DNA of 43,129 bases from Deltaproteobacteria bacterium (lineage in GTDB: Bacteria; Desulfobacterota; GWC2-55-46; DRQE01). Shown here piece by piece: positions 5,999 to 26,376 of this stretch. The first letter of the stretch is position 1. Each line of letters begins with the position of its first letter. Location of the stretch: positions 1 to 43,129 of the forward strand of contig JACRCI010000053.1 of the NCBI GenBank assembly GCA_016219105.1. Reading direction: 5' to 3'. The position numbers and the translations under genes are program-made. Under the pieces are notes generated by a model. That model made no database searches and was not told the DNA's origin. It saw only the letters and a list, made by a program, of their open reading frames with translations.

Positions 5999-6825
5999 AG
6001 GATACCCGGCGATTATCGGCGTCATCGTCAAGGTCAAGGCTTGAAGGCGTGTTCAGGGGCCTGCAAGAAAGAGGCGAAAAGGCCCTCATCACGTTTATAA
6101 CCGCGGGCGACCCGGACATGGGGACGACGAAGAGGATCATATTCGAACTCGAACGCTCAGGGGCCGACATAATAGAGCTCGGCATGCCGTTTTCCGACCC
6201 CATGGCCGACGGGCCGACCATACAGGCATCGAGCGAGCGGGCGCTTAAAGGGGGCGCGACGGTCAAAGACGTCCTCAGGCTTGTAAGAGAGATACGGGGA
6301 AAAAGCTCCATACCCGTGGTCCTCTTCGGCTATTACAACCCCGTATTCGTATACGGGCTTGAAAGGTTTGCCAGGGACGCCGCGGACGCCGGGGCCGACG
6401 GCGTTTTGGTGGTAGACCTGCCGCCCGAGGAGGCGGGGGGACTTAAAAGGGAACTTCAGAGGAAAGCCCTCGACCTCATATATCTCGTCACGCCGACAAG
6501 CAACACGGGCAGGATGAGGCTTGTGGCGTCAAAGGCCTCGGGTTTTATCTATTACGTGAGCGTGGCCGGCGTTACCGGCGCGAGGAAAACGCTTGCCGAT
6601 AGGATCCCGGCCGAGATACGTAAGATAAGAAAGTTTACCGGCCTTCCGGTCTGCGTCGGATTCGGCATATCAACCCCGGCGCAGGCGCGCCGGGCGGCCG
6701 CGTGCGCCGACGGGGTCGTGGTGGGAAGCGCCATAATAGACATAATCGCGCGGAATATCGGCGCGAAAGACCTTGCGGCGAGAATGGGAAGGTTCGTCTC
6801 CGGCCTGAAAAAGGGCATGGGTTAG
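5995..6825 (+). CDS. trpA: Tryptophan synthase alpha chain
   Basis: Cleaves indole-3-glycerol phosphate and channels indole to TrpB. The 276-residue barrel carries the catalytic glutamate and aspartate in [17 protein letters not shown], followed by [19 protein letters not shown], the flexible-loop motif [11 protein letters not shown] and the phosphate-binding GFGIS. A basic, serine-rich N-terminal stretch of about 20 residues ([14 protein letters not shown]) precedes the usual start and has no obvious role. The ATG overlaps the trpB stop. It is the last trp gene. Confidence 0.95.
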
Positions 6826-6834
6826 AGGAAGCCC

Positions 6835-6864
6835 TTGCCTTTTGAAGCGGTATTTTTGTAAAAT
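6835..6864 (+). promoter_or_regulatory. Candidate sigma70-type promoter for accD-folC
   Basis: TTGCCT (6835-6840), an 18-base spacer and TAAAAT (6859-6864) lie in the 129-base gap between trpA and accD. Spacing is good and both boxes match in four or five of six positions. I saw no clear terminator for the trp operon in the gap, so read-through is possible. Confidence 0.4.
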
Positions 6865-6954
6865 AGGGCCTGAGTCTTTCTATCCGCGCGCAGGCTTGAG
6901 TATCAGGTGTTTTAAACTCTCCACGCTCAACCGTCAATCCGACAGGGTCAGACC

Positions 6955-19302: not shown

Positions 19303-19334
19303 TAAAAAGGGGCCAGCCGACATCGGCTGACCCC
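19303..19334 (-). terminator. Original terminator of tRNA-Ala, now separated from the gene
   Basis: On the minus strand a hairpin of 12 bp with one mismatch (19309-19320 with 19323-19334) is followed by a T run (19304-19308). It sits just beyond the leftover tRNA 3' half at 19345-19389, where the tRNA terminator would be before integration. Eight bases of its arm belong to the 63-bp att repeat. Confidence 0.65.
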
Positions 19335-19389
19335 CTGATTTTACTGGTGGAGCTGAGGGGGATCGAACCCCTGACCTCAAGACTGCCAG
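19327..19389. repeat. Left attachment site: 63-bp direct repeat with tRNA-Ala 3' half
   Basis: These 63 bases are identical to 26283-26345. Bases 19345-19389 are the last 45 nucleotides of tRNA-Ala on the minus strand, from the first anticodon-loop base to CCA. The identity stops exactly at the anticodon loop, a usual crossover point for tRNA-targeting tyrosine recombinases. Confidence 0.95.
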
Positions 19390-19508: not shown

Positions 19509-19530
19509 TTGGTCACGTTTTGGTCACGTT
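19509..19530 (+). repeat. Tandem TTGGTCACGTT pair at the left end (candidate integrase arm sites)
   Basis: TTGGTCACGTT occurs twice back to back (19509-19519, 19520-19530). The right end of the element has the same arrangement (26233-26254; first copy degenerate), and both pairs continue into GCCGGGAAA. Paired directly repeated sites on either side of the crossover region are the usual form of arm-type sites for tyrosine integrases. The remaining part of 19390-19764 holds no convincing gene, but contains a 16-bp perfect palindrome at 19656-19671. Confidence 0.5.
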
Positions 19531-19764
19531 GCCGGGAAAAGCTCAGCCTCGATGAGCTGGAAAAAGCCGGACTGAGAGATGGGAGTTGAGAGGTATTTCG
19601 GACAGGTGAGGCAGAGGGGGAACCGGTAGTTTTTTTGAACACAGAGGCAACGCCTCCGGCGACGTCGCCGGCCCGAGCCCTTGGGGGAGGGAAGGCGGAA
19701 AAGGTAAAGACACCGACGCCACCGCCGCGGCGAGATGTGAAACGGCGGCTGCTCGTCAAACATT

Positions 19765-19953: not shown

Positions 19954-20148
19954 TGACCCTCCTCTGCGGCAATGAGATTTTGAAAATGAAGGGTAGCACA
20001 AAAGCCGCGTGAACACAAGGCGTTATAGACAGATTGAAAATCAGACGGTATAATGGTAAAGACCATGCGCACGTTGACTATAGAGGTTACGAGACAGGGG
20101 CACTTGAGGAAAATAAACCAGCTCGGCTGGGAATCAAGGGAGGGGCAC

Positions 20149-20631
20149 ATGCTTAATATCCGGCTCGAAGGGCTCGATGAGATTAAAGACTCGTTGCTGA
20201 GGGTCAGGACAAACACAAAATTGCCGGCGCGGGTGATGAAGAAAATCGCGGATACCCTCGAGCGAAACATCCGCAAGAGAACCTCGCAGGGCATTGACGC
20301 GGAGGGCAGGGCGTTTGCGCCCTACTCGAAAGACTACGCGAAGAAGCGGGACAAGGAAGGCAGGCCAGCGCACATCGTAGACCTTGAGTTCACCGGCGCG
20401 ATGCTGAGGGGCTTGAAGAGTTCCATCAACGAGGACAAGGGCGAGGTGGTCCTTCACTTCCCGGATCCAGAGCAGGCGTTAAAGGCGAGTTTTCACAACG
20501 AGCAGGGAGCGGGCAAAAACAAGGTCATGAGAAGGTTCTTTGAGTTGAGCCATACGGACATCGAGGACGTAAAAAAAATCGTGACGGACCACGTCGTGGA
20601 GGTTGTGAAAAAAACCTTTAGGAGCGCGTAG
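20149..20631 (+). CDS. Phage virion morphogenesis / tail completion protein (Mu gpG-like)
   Basis: The 160-residue product begins LNIRLEGLDEIKDSLLRV and carries the family pattern: a small oligomerising helix, an IRKRTSQGIDAEGRAFAPYS block (substrate-like GxxWAPLS position), a tail-joining region with VDLEFTGAMLRGLKSS, and the C-terminal MRRFFELSHTDIEDVKKIV, which replaces the RPFLGLS motif. Such proteins sit at the head-tail joint or complete the tail. The ATG at 20149 follows GGGAGGGG; the open frame extends to 20053 without a good site. It is the only recognisable structural phage gene in the element, which suggests use of, or interference with, a helper phage tail. Confidence 0.7.
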   Translation: MLNIRLEGLDEIKDSLLRVRTNTKLPARVMKKIADTLERNIRKRTSQGIDAEGRAFAPYSKDYAKKRDKEGRPAHIVDLEFTGAMLRGLKSSINEDKGEVVLHFPDPEQALKASFHNEQGAGKNKVMRRFFELSHTDIEDVKKIVTDHVVEVVKKTFRSA

Positions 20632-22758: not shown

Positions 22759-22965
22759 ATGAGGCAGGTAATGCTTTACCAGGACGAAGACGGCAGGTGG
22801 GTTGCGGAGTGTCCGAGCCTTCCGGGTTGCGTAAGCGACGGCGCAACCAGGGAGGAAGCCATCGAAAACGTAAAAGAGGCTATTGAAGCCTGCATCGAGG
22901 CATTGAAGGAAGAAGGCCGCCCGATACCCGAGGAACGTTTCAACACCCTCCTTGTCGCTGTATGA
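22759..22965 (+). CDS. hicB: HicB family antitoxin
   Basis: A 68-residue HicB with only the partial RNase-H-like fold: YQDEDGRWVAECPSLPGCVSDG, then TREEAIENVKEAIEACIEAL. There is no C-terminal DNA-binding domain. It neutralises HicA. It is preceded by AGGAGGTG and overlaps hicA by ATGA, with the antitoxin gene first. Such pairs stabilise mobile elements or act in phage defence; which applies here cannot be told. Confidence 0.88.
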   Translation: MRQVMLYQDEDGRWVAECPSLPGCVSDGATREEAIENVKEAIEACIEALKEEGRPIPEERFNTLLVAV

Positions 22966-23183
22966 CGAAACTCCCTCAAGTCTCAAGCCGCGAGTGCATT
23001 AAAGCCCTGGAACGCGCGGGCTTCTACCGCGTCCGGCGGAAGGGGAGCCACATCGTCCTGCACAGGAAAGACCCCTTTGCCCAGACCGTGGTACCTGAGC
23101 GTAAGACCCTGGGCAAAGGGCTCCTCCATGCAATCCTCCGCCAGGCCGGCCTCTCCGTAAACGACTTCCTGAAACTGCTGTAA
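22962..23183 (+). CDS. hicA: HicA family mRNA interferase toxin
   Basis: The 73-residue double-stranded RNA-binding-fold toxin has the typical KALERAGFYRVRRKGSHIVL motif, whose histidine is catalytic, and TLGKGLLHAILRQAGLSVNDF at the end. It cleaves mRNA when HicB is lost. Start overlaps the hicB stop, so the two are translationally coupled. The protein looks complete and active. Confidence 0.9.
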   Translation: MTKLPQVSSRECIKALERAGFYRVRRKGSHIVLHRKDPFAQTVVPERKTLGKGLLHAILRQAGLSVNDFLKLL

Positions 23184-23991: not shown

Positions 23992-24168
23992 CAGGGCTTG
24001 CCGGCGGGGGTGAGAGGTCCTTCCCTTCCTTCCGCTCCGGAGGCAGGGCCGGCAGGAAAGCAGGGCGTCGGCGACTCGACGCGACGAGCTGAACATCCAA
24101 ACAGGATGTCATGCAAACGGCCGGCCACGGCAATAACATCCGGCCCGACGCCCCGCTTTTAATACACC

Positions 24169-24615
24169 ATGCCAAAACCACAGCTTGAAAACGGCTTCGC
24201 CAGGATCTCCAACGGAATCATCGAGGCGCTCTACCGCGTGAACCTCGCGCCCTACGAGTGGAGGGTCTTGATGTTTGTTTTCCGGATAACCTATGGCTGG
24301 AACCGCCCCCGCAAGGAAGCTGAAACCTCGGTCAGTCAGATAGCCCGGATCCTTGGGCTCGATCGCCGGCACGTCCAGCGGGCGCTTAAGGGGCTTGTGT
24401 CAAAAGGCATGTTGAAAGTCAAACTCTTAAGCCGGGACTGCGAGCCTGGTAAATCTGTGCAGGTTGCCTTTCAGAAAAACTCCTCGTTGTGGATAACCCT
24501 GTTGAAAACAGGGGGAGGGGGTGCGCCTAAAGAGGCGCAGGCTCATGCGCCTAAAGAGGCGCACCCCCCTGCGCCTAAAGAGGCGCACCCCATGTTTTCA
24601 AAACATCGTTTCTAA
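24169..24615 (+). CDS. Phage replication protein O-like initiator with internal origin
   Basis: Residues 1-100 match the phage replication protein O N-terminal domain: LENGFARISNGIIEALYRVN, APYEWRVLMFVFRITYGWN, then SVSQIARILGLDRRHVQRAL, a winged helix that binds origin iterons. At 148 residues it lacks the longer C-terminal part of lambda O that contacts the helicase loader. The tail consists of three 8-residue repeats starting APKEA, encoded by three palindromic 24-bp iterons. The Shine-Dalgarno sequence before 24169 is weak. As in lambda, the origin appears to lie inside the initiator gene. No helicase or helicase loader gene follows, so host or helper functions would be needed. Confidence 0.82.
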   Translation: MPKPQLENGFARISNGIIEALYRVNLAPYEWRVLMFVFRITYGWNRPRKEAETSVSQIARILGLDRRHVQRALKGLVSKGMLKVKLLSRDCEPGKSVQVAFQKNSSLWITLLKTGGGGAPKEAQAHAPKEAHPPAPKEAHPMFSKHRF

Positions 24616-24740
24616 CCTGTATCCATGCGGGTTTTAGCGTGGCACTGCTTTTGCAAGAGTATTTAAAGAGAAGAAAAGAAAGAGAATACAGTAAATAACC
24701 TAAGGGGTATGCAGAAGGAGGGAACTGTGGATACCTTCTC
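24486..24740 (+). other. Candidate replication origin of the element
   Basis: A perfect DnaA box (TTATCCACA on the minus strand, 24488-24496) is followed by three iterons (24522-24587). Then comes an A-rich, low-GC stretch (about 24657-24705) suited to unwinding, and a second, 8-of-9 DnaA box at 24726-24734. The order of iterons then an AT-rich tract within and just after the O-like gene is that of the lambda origin. Confidence 0.65.
24522..24587 (+). repeat. Three 18-bp palindromic iterons at 24-bp spacing
   Basis: TGCGCCTAAAGAGGCGCA occurs at 24522-24539, 24546-24563 and 24570-24587. Each copy is a perfect 7-bp inverted repeat around AAAG. The 24-base period keeps the reading frame, giving repeated APKEA residues. 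Confidence 0.9.
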
Positions 24741-24770: not shown

Positions 24771-24977
24771 ATGGCGGAACGAACAGCCACGCTGACCCTG
24801 AAGCTCAGGGACGAGCTCAAAGACCTACCGCGCATATTTGAGGGGCTTACGGAAACGCTCGAACTTCTGCGCTCAACGGACGCGCCTCACCACATGAGGG
24901 AAACCCTCGTCGAGACAATGGCTATCCTGGCGAATATAGCGGCCGCGGGCGCAACGGTGGTAGACAAAGAATCATGA
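24771..24977 (+). CDS. Hypothetical small protein before the excisionase gene
   Basis: A 68-residue, mostly helical protein (TATLTLKLRDELKDLPRIFE, then GLTETLELLRSTD) with no family I recognise. AAAAAAGGAGGACAAACC gives an excellent ribosome binding site, and the stop overlaps the next ATG (ATGA), so it is very probably real and co-translated with the excisionase-like protein. Confidence 0.6.
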   Translation: MAERTATLTLKLRDELKDLPRIFEGLTETLELLRSTDAPHHMRETLVETMAILANIAAAGATVVDKES

Positions 24978-25207
24978 CCCTCCTGACCGTCAGGGAGCTC
25001 TCGGCGCTCATCAAGGCCAGCCCGTCAACGCTATACGAGTGGGCCTCGACCGGCAAGGTCCCCGGGGTCGTGCGGTTTAACGGCTCGCTCCGTTTCAACG
25101 CCGAGGTCATAGAGCGCTGGCTTGAGGACGCTGAAAAATCTTCTTGCATTCTACCTGCACGGAAGGCAATATCCAACTGTGCAGGTAGAGGCCGGAAAGG
25201 AGGTTAG
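24974..25207 (+). CDS. Excisionase-like MerR/AlpA-type DNA-binding protein
   Basis: A 77-residue protein whose first 55 residues form a helix-turn-helix of the excisionase/HTH_17 type (LLTVRELSALIKASPSTLYE, then WASTGKVPGVVRFNGSLRF and VIERWLED). Position directly before the integrase (4 bases between the TAG and the int ATG, overlapping its ribosome binding site) fits a recombination directionality factor. An inverted TCTACCTGCAC pair lies within its 3' end. It could instead be a transcriptional activator like AlpA. Confidence 0.75.
   Translation: MTLLTVRELSALIKASPSTLYEWASTGKVPGVVRFNGSLRFNAEVIERWLEDAEKSSCILPARKAISNCAGRGRKGG
25150..25189. promoter_or_regulatory. Inverted pair of TCTACCTGCAC at the xis/int junction
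   Basis: TCTACCTGCAC at 25150-25160 and its perfect inverse at 25179-25189 are separated by 18 bases inside the 3' end of the excisionase-like gene, ending 22 bases before the int ATG. A third copy lies next to the left att site. It may act as an operator for int, an mRNA hairpin that limits int translation, or an excisionase binding site. Confidence 0.5.
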
Positions 25208-25211
25208 GACT

Positions 25212-26294
25212 ATGAGCCTTTACCGGCGGAAGGACTCTCCTCTGTGGTGGATGTCCTTTCGCATGAAATGCCGGCGGCTAAGAGAGTCCACCGGCACAGG
25301 CAAACGCAAGCTCGCGGAGCGGATACACGCGCAAAGGGTCATGGAGATAGCCGAGGGGCGGTTTTCCGCAGAGGCGTTGAGCCGAACTGCAGACGGTTCA
25401 ACGCTCTTTTCGGAGCTGGCCGGCCAGTATCTTGTGTGGGCGGAAAGACAGAGGGGCTTCAAGGTGAACAAGCAATACCTGGTTAAAAACCTCTCCTCCG
25501 TTTTCGGAACGCTGGCGCTGCGGGAGTTTACAACGCAGGCCGTTGAGCGCTTCCAGTCCGCGTTTATCACGGCCGGCAAAAAGCCGGCGACGGCTAACCG
25601 GCACGTCGCCTGCCTCAAGCACATGCACACAAAGGCGGTTGAGTGGGATCTGGGCGGCGAGGACGTCCTCAAGCGCGTCAGAAGGGTGAAGATGTTGCCG
25701 GAGCATAACCGCAGGCTCCGCTTTCTCTCTCGCGAGGAGAGCGCGGCGCTCGTTGTGGCGTGCGACCCTCACTTAAGGCCCATCGTCGTAACGGCCCTCA
25801 ATACAGGCATGAGGAAGGGAGAGATACTCTCCCTTGAGTGGGGCCGGCACGTTGACCTCAGGCACGGCTTGATCCTGCTCGACGTGACGAAGAACGGAGA
25901 ACGGCGGGAGGTGCCTATAAACCAGACCTTGCGCGAAATCCTGTCGGCGCTTGTGAGGAGAATAGGGAGCCCCTACGTTTTCACCGACGGGGAGGGGAGA
26001 CGGTACCGTGACGTCAAGCGGTCGTTCGCCTCGGCCTGCCGCAGGGCGGGGATTAAGGACTTCCGCTTTCACGACCTGCGGCACACCTTCGCAAGTCAGC
26101 TCGTCATGGCGGGGGTGGACCTGACGACGGTGAAGGAGCTCCTGGGGCACAAGACGCTTACCATGACTCTACGGTATGCGCACCTTGCGCCGGCTCACCT
26201 CTCCAACGCGGTCAGGGTTCTCGATGAGGGAAACGGTCACGATTTGGTCACGTTGCCGGGAAACAAAAAGGGGGCCGTATCACTGACCCCCTGA
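25212..26294 (+). CDS. int: Tyrosine recombinase / phage integrase
   Basis: A 360-residue integrase. The N-terminal part is a core-binding SAM-like domain (about residues 65-150: [20 protein letters not shown]). The catalytic domain has the arginine in NTGMRKGEI, the beta-hairpin lysine in [20 protein letters not shown] (HxxR), [15 protein letters not shown] and the nucleophile tyrosine in RYAHL. ATG 25212 has GGAAAGGAGG upstream; the frame extends further up without a better site. The last codons, Leu-Thr-Pro-stop, are read from the att repeat itself. It lies against the intact tRNA-Ala gene, its probable target. Confidence 0.96.
26233..26254 (+). repeat. Right-end pair of the TTGGTCACGTT motif
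   Basis: A degenerate copy (ACGGTCACGAT, 26233-26243) is followed directly by a perfect TTGGTCACGTT (26244-26254) and GCCGGGAAA. The 21 bases 26243-26263 are identical to 19519-19539 at the left end. The pair lies inside the int 3' end, 28 bases from the att repeat. Confidence 0.5.
26265..26291 (-). terminator. Replacement terminator for tRNA-Ala provided by the element
   Basis: On the minus strand GGGGGTC (26291-26285) pairs with GGCCCCC (26276-26270), followed by five T (26269-26265). The first arm belongs to the att repeat and the second arm plus T run to the element, so integration rebuilds a terminator downstream of the tRNA. Confidence 0.6.
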
Positions 26295-26345
26295 TTTTAC
26301 TGGTGGAGCTGAGGGGGATCGAACCCCTGACCTCAAGACTGCCAG
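26283..26345. repeat. Right attachment site: 63-bp direct repeat overlapping tRNA-Ala
   Basis: Identical to 19327-19389 over all 63 bases; flanking bases differ on both sides. It covers tRNA-Ala nucleotides 32-76 and 18 bases beyond, including the last codons and stop of int. Confidence 0.95.
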
Positions 26346-26376
26346 CCTTGCGCTCTCCCAGCTGAGCTACAGCCCC
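26301..26376 (-). tRNA. tRNA-Ala (anticodon GGC)
   Basis: On the minus strand the 76-nucleotide sequence folds into a full cloverleaf: acceptor stem GGGGCTG with CAGCTCC, D-arm GCTC/GAGC, anticodon stem CAAGG/TCTTG, anticodon GGC in loop CTGGCAG, T-loop TTCGATC, and an encoded CCA. Positions 32 and 38 form a Watson-Crick pair (C-G), as is usual in alanine tRNAs. This copy is intact; its 3' half is also present at 19345-19389 because an element integrated here. Confidence 0.97.

Follow-up and report, generated by a model that had tools for sequence, protein, structure and literature searches.

A 7-kb integrative element in the 43,129-nucleotide stretch of DNA that we analysed (the window) probably replicates from an origin inside its own initiator gene, built on the lambda O/ori plan in a short form in which the O protein would mark the origin and the host's DnaA would open it and load the helicase. 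The parts of this reading differ in strength. That the element has a lambda-type origin is, taken alone, very probable, and a direct role of DnaA in helicase loading is a reading that we favour slightly. As read from the letters, the locus is an O gene with three palindromic iterons in its 3' end, an A-rich stretch, flanking DnaA boxes and no C-terminal domain. The lambda-type origin itself is known, and the unusual part is the short form with DnaA boxes, which we also found in unrelated bacteria, again in tiny integrated elements.

The initiator and its probable origin

The initiator has only 148 residues, as an earlier note on this DNA had it, and most of its O relatives have 230-360. It matches Phage_rep_O (PF04492) with an E-value of 1.9e-15 (57.6 bits, cut-off 28.7), and its PHROG match is to replication initiation, O-like. 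The AlphaFold2 model has a single winged helix at residues ~9-101, much of it with pLDDT >90, and a disordered, low-confidence tail that is coded by the iterons. The protein stops 8 codons past the last iteron, without a C-terminal domain. The structural neighbours of the model in the PDB are generic MarR/ArsR-type winged helices, and a PDB search with the sequence likewise returned generic winged helices only. A match to Rep3_N (E 0.006) fell below the cut-off. Immediately 5' of the start codon is a leader with a folding energy of -48.3 kcal/mol (z -4.6), which none of 200 shuffles equalled in stability, and its structure is probably an attenuator that would limit O expression.

The iteron TGCGCCTAAAGAGGCGCA occurs three times with 18/18 identical positions and a period of exactly 24, so the earlier claim of three identical iterons was borne out; no further copies with up to 2 mismatches were found elsewhere in the 43-kb window, and three matches to the iteron were seen in 0/100 shuffles. 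The description of the iterons as 18-bp palindromes holds in part: each consists of inverted 7-bp arms on both sides of AAAG and can therefore form a hairpin, but it is not a perfect palindrome over all 18 bp. When the codons of the O tail were re-drawn synonymously, three identical palindromes were recreated in 0/20,000 draws, so the repeat in the DNA is not explained by the peptide repeat alone. A repeat due to the peptide only is ruled out by these re-draws, by the other peptides found in relatives and by arrays that cross the stop codon.

Strong hairpins, with some terminator-like sites nearby, could also terminate or protect a transcript and not be protein sites in DNA at all. We consider such a role in the mRNA extremely improbable, given that no iteron hairpin is followed by a T-run, that in relatives the letters change while the period of 24 bp and the palindrome in the DNA persist, and that the array passes the stop codon in many of the Omnitrophota elements described below.

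The perfect DnaA box lies 25 bp upstream of iteron 1, where the earlier note had placed it, and 0.39 such boxes are expected per 43 kb. The second, near-perfect box is also present, with 1 mismatch and 138 bp from the last iteron; only 0.6% of the window's 300-bp stretches hold two boxes including a perfect one. The A-rich stretch downstream, likewise present as described, begins ~65 bp past the last iteron; just one other place in the window has at least 28 A per 50 bases. Beside the 1-mismatch box, with a 5-bp spacer, is a trio-like tract, CAG-AAG-GAG, which is degenerate and of a kind that chance gives easily. No tandem second DnaA box was found in the window, where the best candidate has 5 mismatches. 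Among the DnaA-type cases in this study, the window is the weakest: its single upstream box is perfect and its single downstream box imperfect, a tandem box is absent and the trios are degenerate.

Given a MarR/ArsR-type winged helix, palindromic sites, and xis and int directly downstream, the short O could instead be a repressor that acts on the palindromes as operators and controls its own gene or xis/int, with no start of replication. This is very unlikely: the sites occupy the 3' end of the gene, the place of known lambdoid origins (PMC3349717, PMC7466680), and are accompanied by DnaA boxes and an A-rich flank, and the family is annotated as replication initiators.

Table 1. Positions of the probable origin, its initiator gene and the surrounding element in the window
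Feature	Position	Strand	Basis
attL, 63-bp direct repeat, left end of the element	19327..19389	.	Identical 63-mer at 26283-26345
Structured leader, stem GGGCGTCGG...CCGACGCCC-CGCTTTT, possible attenuator	24056..24160	+	RNA fold
Short lambda-O-type initiator, 148 aa	24169..24615	+	Pfam Phage_rep_O, PHROG, AlphaFold2
Perfect DnaA box TTATCCACA	24488..24496	-	In the LWIT codons of O
Iteron 1, TGCGCCTAAAGAGGCGCA	24522..24539	+	Repeat and mismatch scans of the window
Iteron 2	24546..24563	+	Repeat and mismatch scans of the window
Iteron 3	24570..24587	+	Repeat and mismatch scans of the window
A-rich, purine-rich stretch, presumed unwinding element	~24654..24706	+	A count; family-wide A-rich flank
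DnaA box with 1 mismatch, TGTGGATAC on the + strand	24726..24734	-	Box scan
68-aa ORF between origin and excisionase	24771..24977	+	No Pfam or PHROG match
HTH_17 excisionase-like protein	24974..25207	+	Pfam HTH_17 E 7e-10; PHROG excisionase
Tyrosine integrase, longest ORF; likely start near 25215	25122..26294	+	Pfam Phage_integrase E 7e-32
attR, 63-bp repeat overlapping the 3' part of tRNA-Ala(GGC) 26301-26376	26283..26345	.	

The integrative element

The two att repeats are spaced 6956 bp apart. The host of the element most likely belongs to Thermodesulfobacteriota, since two proteins from its phylum (L003, L004) are identical to proteins of the records L028, named Deltaproteobacteria, and L024, named Thermosulfurimonas. 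The order of genes in the element is a phage morphogenesis-type gene, HicB/HicA, two small HTH regulators, O, the 68-aa ORF, HTH_17 and the integrase. The genes after O are thus the small ORF, the excisionase-like gene and the integrase, in agreement with the earlier observation that no loader gene follows the initiator. Of the traits of a PICI-like phage satellite, the att sites, integrase and excisionase are present; such a satellite would have no structural genes of its own, and the element has one phage morphogenesis-type gene. This lone virion-morphogenesis gene (Phage_tail_S / tail completion, 20053-20631) is accompanied by no other clear structural genes in the element, and the HicB/HicA toxin-antitoxin pair (22759-23183) has the antitoxin first. 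We also noted a 29-bp near-identical direct repeat, GGTCACGTTTTGGTCACGTTGCCGGGAAA, at 19511-19539 and 26235-26263, near both att sites; these copies are possibly integrase arm sites. An Rfam scan of the element gave only matches to the tmRNA model, at the tRNA-Ala gene and at the partial copy of this gene.

With its stray phage tail-type gene, the element could be decaying, and the origin could then be dead, left in an O gene truncated after the iterons in a prophage remnant where the DnaA boxes are incidental. The small size of the element and the lone morphogenesis-type gene suit this explanation, as does the window O having no close short relative that we could find in its own phylum. A search of IMG/VR returned no close relatives of the protein. 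We searched the 2.9 kb around the O gene for remnants of a C-terminal domain, frameshifted ones included, and found nothing convincing. The absence of such a trace argues against a remnant, as do the intact and identical iterons, the att repeats and integrase, which appear intact, and the recurrence of the short plan in small elements with intact recombinases. A dead remnant is therefore unlikely, and we continue with a working origin as the preferred reading.

Iteron arrays in O-type relatives

We gathered O-type relatives from genome and viral collections; all loci come from assemblies, many of them metagenomic. Palindromes were detected as arms of at least 6 with a loop of 3-6. At least two copies of one palindrome were found in 86/161 loci compared with 24/483 synonymous-shuffle controls, and at least three copies in 66/161 compared with 8/483. 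The scan of the real loci extended 200 bases past the gene, and the shuffled stretch did not. The arrays lie directly after the winged-helix domain, often with an exact 24-bp spacing and an A-rich centre, and their letters are specific to the locus. In the non-redundant loci, A makes up 55% of the 30 bp that follow the array on its 3' side, compared with ~35% elsewhere, and this enrichment is strand-asymmetric.

The arrays, their position and the A-rich flank are features of ori-lambda, so a lambda-like origin, as judged by these features, is common in the O family, and the window is one member and in that respect an ordinary one. The claim of the earlier note that a lambda-like origin lies inside the initiator gene is accordingly supported, at the level of sequence, by the O family itself, by the array that recurs with changed letters and by the A-rich flank. 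The comparison of iterons in homologues, which that note had proposed as a check, came out mixed: arrays occur in the same place and far above the codon-shuffle level, but about half of the relatives have no iterons by our detector. In one full-length-type O from Chromatiales (L076), we noted a stop codon within the iteron array, with the C-terminal part resuming in frame.

DnaA boxes are not general to O origins, and we rejected that idea, since a perfect box is near the array in only 3/50 non-redundant loci with at least three iterons, the window included.

DnaA boxes in short and long O genes

DnaA boxes are commoner with short O than with long O. A perfect box in the origin zone was found for 11/29 short O compared with 4/160 long O (Fisher p 1.6e-7, a value that ignores ancestry), and at least two boxes with up to 1 mismatch for 13/29 short O compared with 2/160 long O. 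Eleven of these 13 short O belong to one clade, that of Omnitrophota, which has a support of 0.70 in the tree and leaves the window outside. Common descent of the window's short O with that of Omnitrophota is therefore not supported by the tree. Because the Omnitrophota proteins form a single clade, we count few independent cases, namely the window, L174 and the clade itself within the O family, and L298 outside it. L174 is a viral contig whose short O has a box, three palindromes, an A-rich stretch and a box. L298 (G472:C1, ~1930865) has the same plan with an HTH_36 winged-helix initiator of a different family, in the order perfect DnaA box, four GTGACA..TGTCAC-type palindromes at the gene end, stop codon, A-rich DNA, TAGTAGTAG and two tandem boxes. 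It adjoins a ParB/methyltransferase-type gene. In these independent cases, a short protein and a missing loader appear to co-occur with DnaA boxes.

Several short O without boxes (L141/L144, L068, L186, L087) are beside a gene for a DnaB-type helicase or a DnaC/IstB-type ATPase, and long-O phages often have a helicase gene beside O. By eye, we saw no helicase or loader gene beside other box-less short O, for example L034, L209 and L240, so the complementary pattern is a lead and not a law.

These neighbourhoods also bear on whether the element is a phage satellite with an ordinary lambda-type origin, for which another resident phage would supply the loader in trans and the DnaA boxes would only tune initiation. 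The size and gene content of the element suit a satellite, it has no loader, and long-O phages, as noted, often have a helicase gene beside O. Against a satellite, the association of DnaA boxes is with the short form, no helper is known, and an O without its C-terminal domain has no known contact for a P-type loader. We judge this to be about as unlikely as a dead remnant, or slightly more so, and prefer an origin that DnaA itself would help to open.

Small short-O elements in Omnitrophota

When we searched with the short form, we found 11 short O genes of 120-144 aa that form one clade; their genomes are of the same phylum as L063, L058 and L038, which are labelled Omnitrophota. The iterons of most of these elements extend to the stop codon or past it, and are therefore elements of the DNA and more than coding repeats. 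The arrays are followed by an A-rich stretch that ends in TAGTAGTAA or a close variant and then by two abutting DnaA-like boxes, such as TGTGAATTC TGTGGATAA, of which the tandem second box has 2 mismatches in most elements. The trio tract is mostly broken by one AGA. In most elements there is a further DnaA-like box, TGTGGAAAA, 5' of the array; it lies in LWKT codons, comparable to the LWIT codons of the window.

The pattern TAGTAGTA-N(6-24)-TGTGRATAA has one match per genome in 10/11 genomes, nine of them in the O elements and the tenth in L298, and the reversed pattern, used as a control, has 0 matches in the same 11 genomes. We had considered the TAGTAGTA match in G472 as a chromosome origin and rejected this, since it is another phage-like replication region. 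The DNA pattern of the origin module had no match in IMG/VR. In the gap between dnaA and dnaN, nearly all these hosts have CTACTA-type trio tracts, as judged by eye, and so does the host of the window.

The elements consist of the short O, the origin, an ORF of 63-85 aa, a recombinase and little else, and are flanked by ordinary host genes. Most appear to fit in ~3 kb, and no direct att repeats were found around the L063 and L271 elements. The recombinase is of the tyrosine type in L271 and L289, where it is homologous to the window integrase (E 3e-79 and 7e-79, respectively), and of the serine type in L272-L276, L277, L278 and L288. In L287, a 300-aa AAA ATPase (6007-6906) is directly after the origin, near the contig end, in the place of the recombinase. 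In three genomes (L273, L276, L278), a miaB-like gene directly follows the serine-recombinase element, and a CheY-like regulator is upstream in several. All 11 elements have a strong hairpin and T-run just 5' of the O start codon, and the leader structure of the window differs. The hairpin is 16-21 bp with a GGGCTGG...CCAGCCC core at most ~70 bp before the O start (L271-L278, L287-L289); the inner stem varies and its pairing is kept. It had no match in Rfam. Matches to the c-di-GMP-I riboswitch are near two of the small elements, at L272 7213-7307 and L275 6078-6171.

We propose tentatively that such loci are recurrent, apparently undescribed minimal integrative replicons in which the winged-helix half of O is kept and a host-type DnaA unwinding module takes the place of the C-terminal half and the loader. 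In the clearest of them, this module would be the DnaA boxes with DnaA-trios, and the smallest, at ~3 kb, would comprise the leader hairpin, short O, origin, small ORF and recombinase. The open-access literature that we searched did not describe short O proteins in combination with DnaA-trios, which is weak evidence of novelty.

Proposed mechanism and significance

In the mechanism that we envisage, dimers of the short O would bind the palindromes and form a nucleoprotein complex that strains the A-rich stretch. Host DnaA would be recruited to the flanking boxes, perhaps by O, would open the A-rich DNA or hold it open, and would bring the host helicase. DnaA would in this way do the job that the O C-terminal domain and P, or a phage helicase or loader, have in lambda-like phages. 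The origin may act on excision of the element, or in place after induction.

If so, these loci suggest that the lambda initiator is modular in nature and that the half that marks the origin can act by itself when the origin relies on the host's machinery for opening. Versions without DnaA boxes tend to retain the C-terminal half, or else a gene for a helicase or loader, so that the joining of phage-type to chromosome-type initiation would follow a swap rule that can be tested. The elements would also provide very small natural replicons for studying the cooperation of DnaA with an iteron-binding protein.

Comparison with known systems

In lambda and lambdoid phages, the O gene contains the iterons of the origin, which are inverted repeats of ~18 bp centred on an A-tract, with an A-rich stretch on their 3' side (PMC3349717, PMC7466680). 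The window shares with lambda the O-type N-terminal domain, iterons of ~18 bp in the gene after that domain and the A-rich stretch 3' of them. In contrast, lambda O has about double the length and the P loader comes after it, whereas the window O ends after the iterons, no P or helicase gene is present, and DnaA boxes flank the array.

In iteron plasmids such as RK2, DnaA assists opening and helicase delivery (PMC4980987). A winged-helix initiator, iterons, an AT-rich region and DnaA boxes are common to the window and to RK2, F, P1 and pSC101. The iteron plasmids use other Rep families, and their origin is usually outside the gene. They are autonomous, whereas the window has an O-family initiator with palindromic sites inside its gene, in an integrated element. 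Rep3 plasmids have initiators with two winged-helix domains, compared with one in the model of the window O.

The basal unwinding system of bacterial oriC, DnaA-trios with a DnaA box, has been described for chromosome origins (PMC8287927, PMC6669920). Its criterion is a DnaA box at most 16 bp from at least three NAN trios, typically 3'-GAT-5'. The window has only degenerate trios and one imperfect box. The Omnitrophota elements and L298 are far clearer cases and carry TAGTAGTAA/G beside tandem boxes, in the order and orientation reported for that system (PMC8287927, PMC6669920), and in the short-O elements it is joined to phage-type iterons.
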